From Desulfuromonadaceae bacterium (lineage in GTDB: Bacteria > Desulfobacterota > Desulfuromonadia > Geobacterales > Pseudopelobacteraceae): a stretch of DNA of 64,000 bases. The translations under genes and the position numbers were made by a program. Under the pieces are notes generated by a model. The model did no database searches. It worked only from the letters and a program-made list of their open reading frames with translations, and was not told the DNA's origin. The stretch is from the NCBI GenBank assembly GCA_028683855.1, contig JAQUHA010000006.1, positions 1 to 64,000 on the forward strand, written 5' to 3'. Positions 50,102 through 56,388 of this stretch are shown here, one piece after another (within the stretch, counting starts at the first letter, position 1; the number at the start of each line of letters is the position of its first letter).

Positions 50102-51277
50102 TTATTTTTCAGCTGATATTGAGATGCGTATGCTATTTCCATGAGTCTCAGAAACAACTATTTTATCCCCGCCGAATTTTATGCCGTGCAGTTCATGAGC
50201 CAATCTTTCTGTATTACAGCTGCTCCACCCTACTCCGAACTCAGCACGCCCCCTCACAAAGCTCCTCTGAGCAATCTTTTGAATGCCAAAAACTGATGAA
50301 GTTAGTGCCGTCTTGAATTTCTCAATGTTTTCAAAGGGTAAATTTTCAACTACCATCATTACTTCATGTTCATTGTAGCAGGCATCCAGCCACCCTTTTA
50401 CAATTCCGGAAGAGATAAGGTCTGCAAGCTTATCCGCAGCCTTAAGGGCGGCTTTCTGTGTGCCGACAGCAAAACTGATATGTGGCGCTACTGCTTCAGA
50501 AGTTGCTGTCGTCAGTAGCTTGCCTGTAACAGACTCAAACGCCTGCGCAGAAATTACTGCAGCATAAGAGCGTATTTTATCATTGTATGGGGATCCGCCA
50601 TTGTCCTGCAGCAATACCTCCCCGGCAACAACAACCTGAGAAATCGGAGCAGCCAGTTCAAGAGCCTTTGCATCTAAACCTGCTGTTTGTCCAAGAAGCA
50701 GAGCCTGGCGAAATCGTTCGGCATCACGAGCAGACTGATTTACAACCCGGTACCCCTTCCCAGCAAGAGATTTTGCAACCGCCGTTTCAACAGTAGCAAT
50801 ATCTACCGCTACGGATTGAAGGCCTTTGGAAAGTCCTTTTTGCGTGAAGGAAACAATAAGAGCAGGATAGTTCATCTGCGGCAGAATATGAGCCAACGCA
50901 GCAACATCATCAGCTAAAGCTATTCTTTCTACCCGCGCCTTCATATTTACGTTACAAATATCTTGCTCACACTCTTTTTTGATGATTTCGAATTTTTTTA
51001 CATACCCCTCTACACGGGATAGAATTTTATCGTTGATAAGTTCCGAATCGGTAACCAGCGTTTCGCTTGATATCATAACTCCAAGAGCCTGTTCTACCGC
51101 ACTTCTCATGGCTGCTTTAATAGCATCATCAGTTGCCGCTCCGGTATTGCCCGCCTGAACTGCACCGCTCCCATCAACCAGCAGCCACTCATCGGAAGAA
51201 TTCGCGGAAGCAAAAGAAGGGGGGATATTAACAGAGACCCCCACGAGCAGTGTAAGAATAAAAGTGAAAAGTCGCAT
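50102..51277 (-). CDS. exported FlgT/LPP20-like protein
   Basis: The 391-residue protein has a signal peptide (about 1-24, cleavage after S-F-A-S) and then a pattern typical of FlgT N-terminal and LPP20-like domains: A-I-K-A-A-M-R-S-A-V-E-Q-A-L-G-V-M-I-S-S-E-T (about 53-74). A second alpha/beta module follows with V-A-V-D-I-A-T-V-E-T-A-V-A (about 156-168). There is no lipobox. It is the last of four exported-protein genes on the same strand, and the annotation is structural rather than functional. Flagellar FlgT is a relative, but no flagellar gene lies nearby. Confidence 0.72.
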   Translation of the reverse strand: MRLFTFILTLLVGVSVNIPPSFASANSSDEWLLVDGSGAVQAGNTGAATDDAIKAAMRSAVEQALGVMISSETLVTDSELINDKILSRVEGYVKKFEIIKKECEQDICNVNMKARVERIALADDVAALAHILPQMNYPALIVSFTQKGLSKGLQSVAVDIATVETAVAKSLAGKGYRVVNQSARDAERFRQALLLGQTAGLDAKALELAAPISQVVVAGEVLLQDNGGSPYNDKIRSYAAVISAQAFESVTGKLLTTATSEAVAPHISFAVGTQKAALKAADKLADLISSGIVKGWLDACYNEHEVMMVVENLPFENIEKFKTALTSSVFGIQKIAQRSFVRGRAEFGVGWSSCNTERLAHELHGIKFGGDKIVVSETHGNSIRISISAEK

Positions 51278-51308
51278 TAACTACCTCTTAGATGCGATAT
51301 TTGAGTAA

Positions 51309-52463
51309 CTAGAAATGAACCGCTGATCCCAAATATACAAGGTCAGATCTATACTTGTACAGCCCAAGAGTTTTTTTGTACCCCAAGTTTAATCCCCATG
51401 TTTCGGAGACATTAACACGATATTCCCCCCCAACCTCGTAATAGTTCTGGTCTTCAGGCTTGGCTTTATAATTGGTAACATCACCGGTATAGGCAATATT
51501 AACACTCGCAACCTGATTATTACCAATACGAACACCGGCATTTGCTCCGGTCTTAACGAGGAGCTGATAGTCGTCAGCCTGATTAGAGTTGTCCTTGTTG
51601 TATTGGTATGTAGCACCAACGCCAAGCTCTAAGAGATCACTATTATACTGCAATCCGGAACTAAGACCGGCACCGAACATATTCCTTTTATCATGTCCCC
51701 CCTTATTATAACTCAAGTAGTTGTACAGATAGTTCATGTTGCCTGTAAATGCGACGGAAAGCTCATCCCCGAGAGGAACAATGTACTGCCCGAAGAAGAT
51801 TGTACCGATGCGGTCGGCATCAAGTATGTTGTAATCAAAGTGCTGATAGGGGAGTATAACACCAACAGTAAAATCATCTAAATCATACGCTAAACCGAGG
51901 TTCATTCCGTAAACCTGGCCTTTATAATCGTTATTTTTATCTACAAACTCAGTACTCAAACTTGCCCCAAAAGTTCGTAGCCTGTTAGATTCGCGTATAT
52001 CACGCCCATCTTTATCTTTCGGTTGTACGGCTGTTTTTTCCGAAGCTGTTTTAGGTGGAGGCAGAACCAGATTACTGAATACGGTATTTGTTGTCATAAC
52101 CGAGGGAGAACTTGGGTTTGAAATGCTGGCTACTGAAGTAAGCGATATATTGAAATGTTCGGCAAGAGCTAGATACACTTCATCAAGCGTGTTATAAAAA
52201 CTAGCCACGCCGCCAATATCAATTGCTATTTGGCCGGGAATTGTGCCGTTAGGACCGGTCTGAGGTGGTTCCTGCCACCATACAACAGTCTGACCGTTAA
52301 CATTTGCCGTTTGAGATAGAGTAGAAAGATTCTGACCAATAGTTGTATCCACAAATGTTCTTAGATCTGTAGCATTCTGTATAATAACCGCCGCAAATAC
52401 AGACGCTACTGAAAGGAGTATAACAGCCGCGCCTAATACAAATAATCTTTTCATTTCAAACAT
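51309..52463 (-). CDS. outer membrane beta-barrel protein with N-terminal exposed region
   Basis: The 384-residue protein has a signal peptide (about 1-25), a soluble region (about 26-160) rich in Ser, Thr and Pro, and a C-terminal barrel of about 220 residues with alternating aromatic strands (L-G-Y-K-K-T-L-G-L-Y-K-Y) ending in phenylalanine, the usual barrel-assembly signal. The shape recalls an autotransporter-like or porin-like beta-domain, but the passenger would be short. It sits 31 bases upstream of the FlgT-like gene and 35 bases downstream of a CsgG-like lipoprotein gene. GGAGG precedes the ATG at 5 bases. Confidence 0.78.
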   Translation of the reverse strand: MFEMKRLFVLGAAVILLSVASVFAAVIIQNATDLRTFVDTTIGQNLSTLSQTANVNGQTVVWWQEPPQTGPNGTIPGQIAIDIGGVASFYNTLDEVYLALAEHFNISLTSVASISNPSSPSVMTTNTVFSNLVLPPPKTASEKTAVQPKDKDGRDIRESNRLRTFGASLSTEFVDKNNDYKGQVYGMNLGLAYDLDDFTVGVILPYQHFDYNILDADRIGTIFFGQYIVPLGDELSVAFTGNMNYLYNYLSYNKGGHDKRNMFGAGLSSGLQYNSDLLELGVGATYQYNKDNSNQADDYQLLVKTGANAGVRIGNNQVASVNIAYTGDVTNYKAKPEDQNYYEVGGEYRVNVSETWGLNLGYKKTLGLYKYRSDLVYLGSAVHF

Positions 52464-52498
52464 ATTGCCCTCCTGAACATAAAAATTGTATGCTCCTT

Positions 52499-53113
52499 TC
52501 AGAGCATACGTTTAATTAGACTAAAGACAGCCTTATTGATAGCATCTTCCGTTGCAGTACCGGTATCATACCCGCGACCAACTCCACTCCCGGGAATGTA
52601 TTCAAGGGTTTCAACATCTACCATACGCACCTGGATACCCATTCTAGTTGAAAGATTCTTTTTTGCTGAAAAACCGGAAATTACCTCGCCGCCCTGGGCA
52701 AAATCATATACCTCTCCATAAATAACTTTTTTGGCACCAAGTATCTTCCCCATTTCAACAGCTGTTTTCTGGTCGACCATACCTGAAGAACTCATCCACT
52801 GCCGATCAAGCGCATCCTTTATTATTTCAGGTTTCTCTTCAACAAAAGTGAAACGTTTGGAATCAAAAAGCGCTTCGACCACCATGTTGTGAACCCCCAT
52901 ACCTACATCTTTTGACAGGAGATGCGGGTAAGCCTTCGCAGCTCGCTCGGACAAACCGAGTGGTAAAACTGCAATTGTGATTCTGGGACCAGAATATGGG
53001 AGCATCTTGTATTCAGGCTCTACCGGTTGGATCTCTTCAACAGTAGTGGTTGCACAGGCAGCGATAACAAGAAGCAGTACAGAAATAATTATCCTAACCA
53101 AATATCTGGTCAT
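52499..53113 (-). CDS. CsgG-like lipoprotein
   Basis: The 204-residue protein has a signal with lipobox I-A-A-C (Cys 20), so it is probably anchored to a membrane. The body matches the CsgG-type fold: I-T-I-A-V-L-P-L, F-D-S-K-R-F-T-F-V-E-E, M-G-K-I-L-G-A-K-K-V-I-Y-G and V-D-V-E-T-L-E. CsgG itself is the curli export pore, and many relatives in other bacteria are of unknown role. Its start overlaps the previous gene by 4 bases. No CsgA/B-like amyloid subunit or CsgE/F is seen nearby. Confidence 0.78.
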   Translation of the reverse strand: MTRYLVRIIISVLLLVIAACATTTVEEIQPVEPEYKMLPYSGPRITIAVLPLGLSERAAKAYPHLLSKDVGMGVHNMVVEALFDSKRFTFVEEKPEIIKDALDRQWMSSSGMVDQKTAVEMGKILGAKKVIYGEVYDFAQGGEVISGFSAKKNLSTRMGIQVRMVDVETLEYIPGSGVGRGYDTGTATEDAINKAVFSLIKRML

Positions 53114-53799
53114 TTAACCTCCATGAATCTGGCTGCAACACTCTGCACTGCCTCTTTGACTGCAGAGTGCATAGCTATGCCTACACTTGTTTTATCAAAA
53201 TATATCTTGTCGTCACGCACCTCAAAAAGAACCCCGTTTGAGACAGTTTTACCTGAACCAGAGCCTTGACCGGTAACAACTATTCCGCTCCTCGTTTTTA
53301 CGTCAACCTCCACCTCAACATTTATATTAACTTTTGCAGTAGAAAACAGCCCGGCAAAGCCACGAAATCGTGATTTTGAAAACTTTTTTATAATAACATC
53401 TGCTACAGCATCAGATCCAAGCTGGTCAAACAGACTTTCAGACTGTTTAACCTGATCTCCTGATGAGATGGAAAGCTGGACAAGTTCCTGAATCCGCTTT
53501 GAAATTTCAGGATTGTCCTCAACAGGCACAAACTGACCGGTATCGTACAACTCCTGCGCGACCATCCGACTTATACCATATACGACAAGTAATTTTGAAA
53601 GCTCAGGCTCTTCTGCCTCATTGTGAACACCCACTACTGCAATGCGCTGAATTGGGGGAATGCTCTTCTTTGCCATCGTTTTAGAATCAGTGTAACCCCC
53701 CTCATAAGCGTAGAGAGAGCATGGAGAGAGTAGGGCAGCGCCTGCAATCAGGAAAAAGAGTTTAAACATTGAGGATATTCTGACTAACGACGACAACAT
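53110..53799 (-). CDS. exported CsgG-related protein
   Basis: The 229-residue protein has a signal peptide (about 1-32, cleavage near L-Y-A-Y; no lipobox). It carries a second CsgG-type module: R-I-A-V-V-G-V, L-Y-D-T-G-Q-F-V-P-V-E-D, and a barrel-like stretch V-N-I-N-V-E-V-E-V-D-V with G-S-G-S-G. It is the first gene of the four; GGAGATAG lies before its ATG. Coupled to the lipoprotein gene by a 4-base overlap, the two may form one complex. The assignment rests on fold-level resemblance. Confidence 0.7.
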   Translation of the reverse strand: MLSSLVRISSMFKLFFLIAGAALLSPCSLYAYEGGYTDSKTMAKKSIPPIQRIAVVGVHNEAEEPELSKLLVVYGISRMVAQELYDTGQFVPVEDNPEISKRIQELVQLSISSGDQVKQSESLFDQLGSDAVADVIIKKFSKSRFRGFAGLFSTAKVNINVEVEVDVKTRSGIVVTGQGSGSGKTVSNGVLFEVRDDKIYFDKTSVGIAMHSAVKEAVQSVAARFMEVK

Positions 53800-54233
53800 A
53801 TATCTATCTCCTGCTCAAGGTTAAAAACCGTGCGTCGTTAAAACCAATACTGCAATTAAATAGAAACGAAGCTAAAACGATTAAGTGATTGGAGATTAAA
53901 ATAAATATAAAGCAGTTATAAATAACTACTACCGTTAGTTTTGTTTGTCAAGACTCAATAAGTAAGCTGATACTGCCGAAAAACCGCTGAACAGAGCATA
54001 AACAGAAATGAGTATTTATTATAAATTTCAAGCTTTTACACACAAACACTAACAAACTCAGGCGACAGACATTGGAGATAAAACATTATTTGCGCTACAA
54101 GCATAAATATCCCTGCCAAACTCAACCGAACCAATCAATACAGTCTTTAAAAATGGTAGAAATATTGTTGCAAGCTTCTTAACTATATGCTAGCTTTCGG
54201 TCGTTTATTATAGATAATTTAAAGGAGATTTAC
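53800..54233. other. AT-rich divergent intergenic region
   Basis: About 434 bases separate the exported-protein operon (leftward) from a parvulin lipoprotein gene (rightward). On the minus strand a perfect TTGACA lies at 53951-53946 with no clean -10 at normal spacing; on the plus strand TATTATAGATAAT near 54206 could be a -10. No frame, RNA or repeat was found. Confidence 0.5.
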
Positions 54234-55187
54234 GTGAGAATCATTTCTGCTGCAAAACTTTTCACTGCAACACTTTGTATGACTGCACTGGTTGGCTGCC
54301 AGGGAAACACACCTGCAGATGGCGGAAAATCAGAAGGTAAAAAAGAGGGCAAGATTTTAGCTGAAGTTAATAGCGGCAGCATTACAACTGCTGACTTTGA
54401 CCGTGAATTAAAAAACCTTCCAGACTATCTGAAAGCAATGGCGGATACTCCCCAGGGGCGCAAAGAGATGCTGGATACAATGGTTATCCGCGAGCTGATT
54501 CTACAGCAGGCTTCAAAAGACGGTCTTGACAAGGGTGCTGAAATTGAAGAGAAACTGCAGGATTTAAAAAAGCGTCTGATTGTTGAAGCATTCCTCAAGA
54601 AAAAAGTTGAGGCTGAATCAAACGTATCTGATGAAGATATGAAAAAGTTTTACGAGCAGAACAAGGAAAGATTTAAAGCCGGCGAGCAGATCAAAGCGAG
54701 CCATATACTTGTAAAAACTGATAAAGAGGCTTCTGAACTACTTGCTAAACTTAAATCCGGTGCTGATTTTGAAGAGCTTGCCAAAAAAAGTTCAGTTGAC
54801 TCATCATCCGCAAAAGGTGGAGATCTGGGATGGTTTGGAAAAGGGAGTATGGTACCGGTGTTTGAGAAAGCCGCTCTTTCCCTTAAAGAAGGAGAGATTT
54901 CTTCTGTTGTAAAATCTGATTTTGGCTTTCACATAATTAAGCTTACGGGTAAACGTGCCGCCGGCATACGCCCCTTTGAAGAGGTAAAAGATCAGATTAA
55001 AGCAGCGATTATGCCAACGAAACAGCAGGAAGTCTTTCAGAAGATTAAAGATGAACTGAAAAAAACAGCCAAGATAGTTGTAAAAGAGGATGTTTTGGGA
55101 AATATCGGGGGCAAAAAGGAAGAGCCTAAAACCGGAGAGCAAAAACCTGCCGATGCAGCAAAAACTGTTGTTCCGGAAAAGAAATAA
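54234..55187 (+). CDS. parvulin-type peptidyl-prolyl isomerase lipoprotein
   Basis: The 317-residue protein has a signal with lipobox L-V-G-C (Cys 22), a SurA/PrsA-like N-terminal chaperone part, and a parvulin domain (about 150-250: A-S-H-I-L-V-K-T, G-G-D-L-G-W-F-G-K-G, F-G-F-H-I-I-K-L). It probably helps fold exported proteins in the periplasm. The start is GTG 54234 with AAAGGAG 8 bases upstream. A lysine/proline-rich tail follows the domain. It is separated from the next, similar gene by a terminator. Confidence 0.93.
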   Translation: MRIISAAKLFTATLCMTALVGCQGNTPADGGKSEGKKEGKILAEVNSGSITTADFDRELKNLPDYLKAMADTPQGRKEMLDTMVIRELILQQASKDGLDKGAEIEEKLQDLKKRLIVEAFLKKKVEAESNVSDEDMKKFYEQNKERFKAGEQIKASHILVKTDKEASELLAKLKSGADFEELAKKSSVDSSSAKGGDLGWFGKGSMVPVFEKAALSLKEGEISSVVKSDFGFHIIKLTGKRAAGIRPFEEVKDQIKAAIMPTKQQEVFQKIKDELKKTAKIVVKEDVLGNIGGKKEEPKTGEQKPADAAKTVVPEKK

Positions 55188-55323: not shown

Positions 55324-56388
55324 ATGAATCTGCGAATTTTAGGAAAAGTAACTATTACAGCCTCTTTGCTTGGGGTTGGCGGGTGTGCCGACAATGAGGC
55401 TCTGCTTAAGAAGGAGACGGCTGAGCAGACAGTTGCTGCAAGCTCTCAGGGCTCCCCCCGTAAAGAGCAGAAAAACATAACTAACTCCATTGCTGCAGTT
55501 GTCAATGATGACATTATTACTCTGTATGATGTAACTAAAGAGTCGCGGCGAATGATAGCTCAAGCTGAAGAAAAAACATCACTAGGCGAAAGTGAACGCA
55601 GAGAAATTCGTCGTACAGCTCTTGATCGACTTATTGAAAAAAAACTTACTGAACAGAAAATAAAAGAGCTAAATATTCAGGTATCCGAGGAAGAGATCCG
55701 CCAGGCAATTGACGACGTTCGCAAACAGAACAACATACCCTCTGAGGATGCTTTAATCGCTGCACTTGCAGGGCAGGGTCTTTCATTCGACCAATACAGA
55801 AAACAGCTTCGCGAACAGATTGAAAAACTAAAGCTGGTTAGCATGGAAGTCAGATCTAAAGTCCACGTATCTGAAACAGAAATGCTTGAATACTATAACG
55901 CAAATTTGCTGAAATACACCGATCAGGAGAGCTATCGCGCACGCCATATTTTCTTTAAGACCGGTGAAAAAGCAACTTCTGCAGATGTTTTACGCTCAAA
56001 GGTTACCGCTATAGCGGTTTTGGCTGATGCTAAAGAAGGGAAGGATTTTGCTGAACTGGCAAAGAAGTTTTCAGAAGATCCGGCTGCTAGGAAAGACGGT
56101 GGAGACCTGGGGAGCTTTAAGAAAGGTGATATGCAACCGGAACTTGAAAAAGCGATTCTGGCTCTTCAACCTGGAGAAGTCAGTGAACTGGTTACCACCC
56201 CGATAGGGTTTCACATTATTAAGCTTGAAGCCAGAACTCCCGGCGAAACAAAGCCCTTTGAATCAGTTAAAGCTGAAATAGAAGAGATAATCTATCGCAA
56301 TAAGTCGGAAGAGCGCTTCAGCCAGTGGGCAAAGGATCTACGGAGCAAAGCTAGCGTTGAAATCAAAAATTCGGACACTATCTTCTGA
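55324..56388 (+). CDS. SurA-like peptidyl-prolyl isomerase lipoprotein
   Basis: The 354-residue protein has a signal with lipobox G-V-G-G-C (Cys 21), a SurA N-terminal chaperone domain (I-A-A-V-V-N-D-D-I-I-T-L-Y-D, about 57-70, then four helices), and one parvulin domain (about 205-310: A-R-H-I-F-F-K-T, G-G-D-L-G-S-F-K-K-G, I-G-F-H-I-I-K-L). It is a single-parvulin relative of SurA, probably serving outer-membrane proteins, and lipidated unlike SurA of E. coli. Its stop abuts the end of a convergent gene. Confidence 0.93.
   Translation: MNLRILGKVTITASLLGVGGCADNEALLKKETAEQTVAASSQGSPRKEQKNITNSIAAVVNDDIITLYDVTKESRRMIAQAEEKTSLGESERREIRRTALDRLIEKKLTEQKIKELNIQVSEEEIRQAIDDVRKQNNIPSEDALIAALAGQGLSFDQYRKQLREQIEKLKLVSMEVRSKVHVSETEMLEYYNANLLKYTDQESYRARHIFFKTGEKATSADVLRSKVTAIAVLADAKEGKDFAELAKKFSEDPAARKDGGDLGSFKKGDMQPELEKAILALQPGEVSELVTTPIGFHIIKLEARTPGETKPFESVKAEIEEIIYRNKSEERFSQWAKDLRSKASVEIKNSDTIF

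Follow-up and report, generated by a model that had tools for sequence, protein, structure and literature searches.

The window analysed here is the whole 64,000-nucleotide stretch of DNA, in which the initial annotation had described a minus-strand run of four genes with a 4-base overlap between the first two. All four open reading frames (A to D) were confirmed on the minus strand, together with that overlap, and the features of the locus are as follows:

53110..53799, minus strand: gene A, an exported, non-lipidated CsgG-fold protein of 229 aa and a paralogue of B (sub-cut-off Pfam CsgG match, hhalign match to the B family, AF2 model)
52499..53113, minus strand: gene B, a CsgG-fold lipoprotein of 204 aa and the best-conserved gene of the operon (Pfam CsgG and LpoB, lipobox Cys)
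51309..52463, minus strand: gene C, an outer-membrane beta-barrel of 384 aa with a variable N-terminal region of ~160 aa followed by 12 strands (AF2 model, Foldseek, orthologues, C-terminal Phe)
50102..51277, minus strand: gene D, a FlgT-like exported protein of 391 aa that only some of the operons include (FlgT_N in orthologues, LipL46, orthologue matches)
53800..54233, minus strand: intergenic region upstream of A, the presumed promoter region (AT-rich, with a divergent gene on its far side)

The four genes form an operon. Given the 4-base overlap of A and B and gaps of 35 bases between B and C and 31 bases between C and D, with thiL following 35 bases after D, a single transcript is plausible, and each of the four genes is preceded by a purine-rich (Shine-Dalgarno-like) stretch. 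The gene order is kept across families and is therefore not a chance arrangement. Promoter scans of the operon region gave nothing above chance, a riboswitch was considered near the operon and Rfam returned no significant match, and a terminator-like stem was found after B, in a region where the number of stems (seven) is barely above the shuffled expectation (4.8). Two parvulin-type (SurA/PrsA-like) foldase genes (54234-55187 and 55324-56388, plus strand) are divergent from the operon; genes of this type did not adjoin the operon in the other loci read.

The protein encoded by A carries a signal peptide without a lipobox and falls below the cut-off of the Pfam CsgG profile (0.0023), and that encoded by B passes the same profile (7e-10) and carries a lipobox (VIAAC|A), the Cys of which is invariant in five orthologues. 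Profile-profile comparison of the two (hhalign probability 97%, E=9e-11) identifies them as paralogous CsgG-fold proteins, i.e. two diverged copies of one module. The AF2 models of A and C were built on four to six sequences each; that of A (six sequences, mean pLDDT 74.6) matches the LPHT flagellar ring entry 8z5n best and FlgT almost as well, and GNA1162, CsgG (9e-6) and PelC are also among its fold matches (E ~1e-6 to 1e-4). B thus belongs to the CsgG superfamily by its Pfam profile and A by its fold match and its homology to B, in agreement with the initial description of an exported CsgG-related protein beside a CsgG-like lipoprotein. The suggestion that the pair might itself be an exporter fared less well. 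The match of B to the CsgG profile ends at position 139 of 210, and the model of A appears to have no more than short hairpins in the regions where each CsgG subunit contributes two membrane-spanning beta-hairpins to the pore, which together with the matches of A to FlgT, GNA1162 and PelC indicates that A and B are probably CsgG-fold ring modules and not the export pore. PDB sequence searches with each operon protein and with the A and B profiles gave no informative relatives, and plasmid searches with A and B found nothing. Homology of B to D, to the exporter described below or to the lipoprotein encoded near that exporter on contig C37 of the window genome was considered, and the profile comparisons were unconvincing.

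Gene C had been read as an outer-membrane barrel with a C-terminal Phe, a residue that its orthologues share, and the model (four sequences) agrees with this in placing 12 strands at residues 162-383. Mean pLDDT of the model is 52, with the barrel mostly about 65-74 and residues 1-160 not reliably modelled. Foldseek placed autotransporter translocators at the top (NalP, 4e-12) and FapF lower (4e-8). The copy in the window matches Pfam Autotransporter weakly, below the cut-off, and three orthologues exceed the cut-off of Pfam OMP_b-brl. The N-terminal region is short or variable among the orthologues, which speaks against a conserved autotransporter passenger.

In D a signal peptide is present (judged by eye), and the FlgT-like character previously assigned to it holds at the level of the family: three of the four operon orthologues tested exceed the FlgT_N cut-off (6e-7 to 2e-9) and the fourth falls narrowly under it, so that D can be placed in FlgT_N on sequence grounds with the window copy itself below the cut-off (0.012). 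The match to NCBIfam LipL46 (3e-12) is also below its cut-off. A fold check had been proposed for all four proteins, and the assigned folds are now supported by family profiles for B and D and by models for A and C. In four f10 genomes and G591, D has orthologues that match at 1e-76 to 2e-92, and D-like proteins, many of which match the N-terminal part only, occur in 39 of the 76 genomes of the host family. A further FlgT-like protein of ~390 aa is encoded in the window genome (L069:8168-9340, contig C6 of G000), where its neighbours, identified by eye, are a FadL-like outer-membrane protein and several large exported proteins. In two f10 genomes (L053:2-3415 and L055:1-3153, by eye) an ORF resembling polyketide or polyunsaturated-fatty-acid synthases lies directly downstream of D.

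The FlgT-like features raise the question of whether the operon encodes a flagellar outer ring (FlgT/FlgO/FlgP-like H-ring), in which A and B would be FlgO-like and D would be FlgT. The top fold match of A to a flagellar ring entry, the FlgT_N domain of D and the presence of the P-ring gene flgI in all tested carriers of D are consistent with such a ring, as in Vibrio. However, no flagellar genes were recognized around the operon in the loci read, no FlgI was detectable in G655 and G656, which have A-B(-C), and relatives of D also occur in non-flagellar contexts (next to recX and a gene for a pilT-like ATPase at loci L004 and L008, in genomes of the host genus, by eye). A barrel such as C is not known to be among the parts of the flagellar outer ring, which counts against this explanation as well, and we regard it as very unlikely.

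The four genes were found together in other genomes, as the idea of a dedicated complex had led one to expect. A-B-C-D occurs in four class-level relatives (L053, L054, L055 and L056, from G180, G173, G179 and G170), and A-B-C without D in four genomes (L025/L050, L051, L052 and L027, from G267, G266, G268 and G656). The order is C-A-B in L028 (G657), A-B-D with C missing is found in L057 (G591), and the contig ends after A-B in L026 (G655) and after A in L024 (G019) and L029, the genome of which (G658) is apparently the same assembly or species as G268 (identical exporter coordinates) and was counted once with it. The host's own family almost entirely lacks the operon (A in 2 of 76 genomes), and G591 was added from a sample of the phylum. 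With gene identities that hold, an order conserved elsewhere and no account of the operon found in the open-access literature, the earlier proposal of an undescribed envelope complex is supported. General envelope maintenance, in which A and B would activate peptidoglycan synthesis in the manner of LpoB and the porin beside them would be unrelated, would fit the match of B to Pfam LpoB (1e-5, above the cut-off), but B lies far under the cut-off of the NCBIfam LpoB model, the coupling to C is conserved, and so rare and patchy a set (B reaches orthologue strength in 8 of the 277 class genomes) is unlike a core envelope function, which makes this explanation highly improbable.

In G591, A-B-D ends a co-directional run of 14 genes that covers 13 kb and in which neighbouring genes are at most 103 bases apart. 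Upstream of A-B-D the run encodes, in this order, a repeat protein and a small protein, then the CsgG-like exporter (467 aa), a protein of 181 aa and a FlgT_N-like protein. A DUF2807 protein, a protease and another repeat protein come next, followed by a protein of 229 aa, a D-like protein and a lipoprotein with weak similarity to CsgG. A homologous cluster is present in the window genome on a separate contig (C37), apart from the operon, with a repeat protein, a small protein, a 532-aa exporter (Pfam CsgG 0.00037, just under the cut-off, plus TPR), a trypsin/PDZ protease, a lipoprotein and FlgT_N-like proteins. For the proteins of both clusters, the term FlgT_N-like refers to a phmmer match to D (E 1e-4 to 1e-6) and not to a Pfam match. 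The exporter also matches HfaB weakly. The search for a secreted subunit that had been advised yielded a likely candidate, the repeat protein, and an exporter on C37, with counterparts clustered with A-B-D in G591. The period of the repeat is exactly 36 residues in all eight repeat proteins tested, and the protein is likely a beta-solenoid surface fibre or adhesin. PDB sequence searches with the exporter profile and the repeat protein gave weak pentapeptide-repeat matches to the latter and otherwise nothing informative.

The exporter search, which scored the best five candidates per genome, found the exporter (matches covering the CsgG-like part) in 11 of the 277 class genomes, comprising 7 of the 8 with B and 4 of the 269 without it (Fisher p=1e-10 with relatedness ignored, a value that overstates independence because the carriers cluster in few families). 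Four more carriers of B (G591, G655, G656 and G657) have the exporter, which is present in 11 of the 13 distinct tested genomes with A or B; the two in which it was not detected, G019 and G170, are 76% and 87% complete. The exporter does not need A-B-C, since it occurs without B in G115, G119, G172 and G047. The identity matrices of B and the exporter are correlated (Mantel r=0.67, p=0.0004), which species relatedness could also explain, and the two sets could be co-inherited within each lineage. The exporter of the window genome is closest to those of G115 and G119, which have no B, and the B of the window genome clusters with those of f10 and G591 in a small tree, suggesting that the two sets may have joined by separate routes. 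Co-occurrence, together with the physical linkage seen in G591 only (elsewhere the two sets lie apart), connects the repeat-protein export cluster to A-B.

Synteny and co-occurrence suggest a link between operon and exporter, and to our minds the chances are about even that A-B-C(-D) is an outer-membrane accessory complex for a CsgG/HfaB-like export system of the secreted 36-residue-repeat protein. In the mechanism that we infer, A and the lipid-anchored B would assemble into a mixed ring on the periplasmic side of the outer membrane, seated at the opening of the 12-stranded barrel C in the way that the ring of PelC lipoproteins sits on the PelB barrel; D would add a FlgT-like collar in the periplasm, and the assembly would pass or anchor the exported repeat protein, or some partner of that protein. 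The analysis itself establishes the gene identities, the operon and its conservation, the homology of A and B, the model folds of A and C, one case of physical linkage and the co-occurrence, whereas the formation of a ring, its contact with C, the nature of the substrate and the direction in which the complex acts are all part of this inferred mechanism. Precedents are known for several of the actions envisaged: a ring of CsgG-fold lipoproteins can sit on a separate barrel, as PelC does on PelB (PMC12141448), FapF is a gated barrel that exports a fibre (amyloid) subunit (PMC5557850), and the CsgG-like HfaB is required for the surface placement of a curlin-like anchor (PMC6707917). These mark out a range of plausible actions and are not evidence on the operon proteins.

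Comparison with PelBC also brings in a different explanation, in which A-B-C-D would be a self-contained outer-membrane secretion or polysaccharide-export unit (PelBC-like) with a substrate of its own, and its co-occurrence with the exporter would reflect shared lifestyle or ancestry. Like PelBC, the operon encodes a CsgG-fold lipoprotein together with one outer-membrane barrel, and A matches the PelC fold significantly; the operon lies apart from the exporter in all genomes but one, and the exporter also occurs without the operon. On the other hand, a single 14-gene cluster unites both sets in G591, the exporter is found in nearly all carriers (the 11 of 13 above), and no substrate or polysaccharide-synthesis gene was recognized as a recurring neighbour of the operon in the loci read. 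The operon further differs from PelBC in having two diverged CsgG-fold proteins where PelBC has one, in the 12 predicted strands of its barrel, which is closest to autotransporter translocators with FapF lower, and in its extra FlgT-like protein. We consider a self-contained unit possible and rather doubtful.

With curli (CsgG/CsgE/CsgF) the accessory complex proposed here would share the CsgG fold and the presence of a secreted repeat protein and an exporter in the same genomes. The initial annotation had remarked on the absence of curli partners and subunits, and neither the operon proteins nor the exporter-cluster proteins that were scanned matched CsgE, CsgF or curlin in Pfam; that part of the claim stands, whereas a protein that is likely the secreted subunit is present after all, with a CsgG-like exporter, on another contig. 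Unlike curli, the CsgG match of B is truncated (as above), the exporter is a separate, larger protein just under the CsgG cut-off, and the repeat is of 36 residues. In Caulobacter, HfaABD combines a CsgG-like protein and a curlin-like surface protein in a complex that spans the outer membrane (PMC6707917). The exporter resembles HfaB, with marginal sequence similarity, but HfaABD is without a barrel or paired CsgG modules. The Fap system of Pseudomonas likewise uses a barrel channel for a secreted fibre subunit, and FapF is among the Foldseek matches of C; in contrast, C ranks nearer the autotransporter translocators, Fap is without CsgG modules, and no homologue of a Fap subunit or protease was identified.

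A more specific and more tentative proposal is that of an undescribed fibre assembly system, in which the CsgG-like exporter and its small partner would secrete the 36-residue-repeat protein as a beta-solenoid fibre. That fibre would be anchored or completed at a second station in the outer membrane, consisting of a heteromeric CsgG-fold ring of A and B, the 12-stranded C and the FlgT-like collar D. CsgG-fold proteins underlie several outer-membrane machines, including curli, Pel, the holdfast anchor and flagellar rings, and a CsgG-fold pair fixed to its own barrel and found with a repeat-fibre export cluster would, if confirmed, be a new architecture. It would also point to an unstudied surface fibre in Desulfuromonadia-like bacteria and relatives, which are noted for attaching to surfaces and for extracellular electron transfer.

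The secreted 36-residue tandem-repeat protein of the window genome (L070:1250-2119, contig C37 of G000) is encoded beside the CsgG-like exporter and its small partner, and is also adjoined by the trypsin/PDZ protease and a transglutaminase-like protein. A 1172-aa repeat protein lies next to one of 311 aa near the exporter in G656 (L108:12683-16201), and a plasmid search with the exporter recovered one distant relative, annotated as DUF4384, in Azospirillum.
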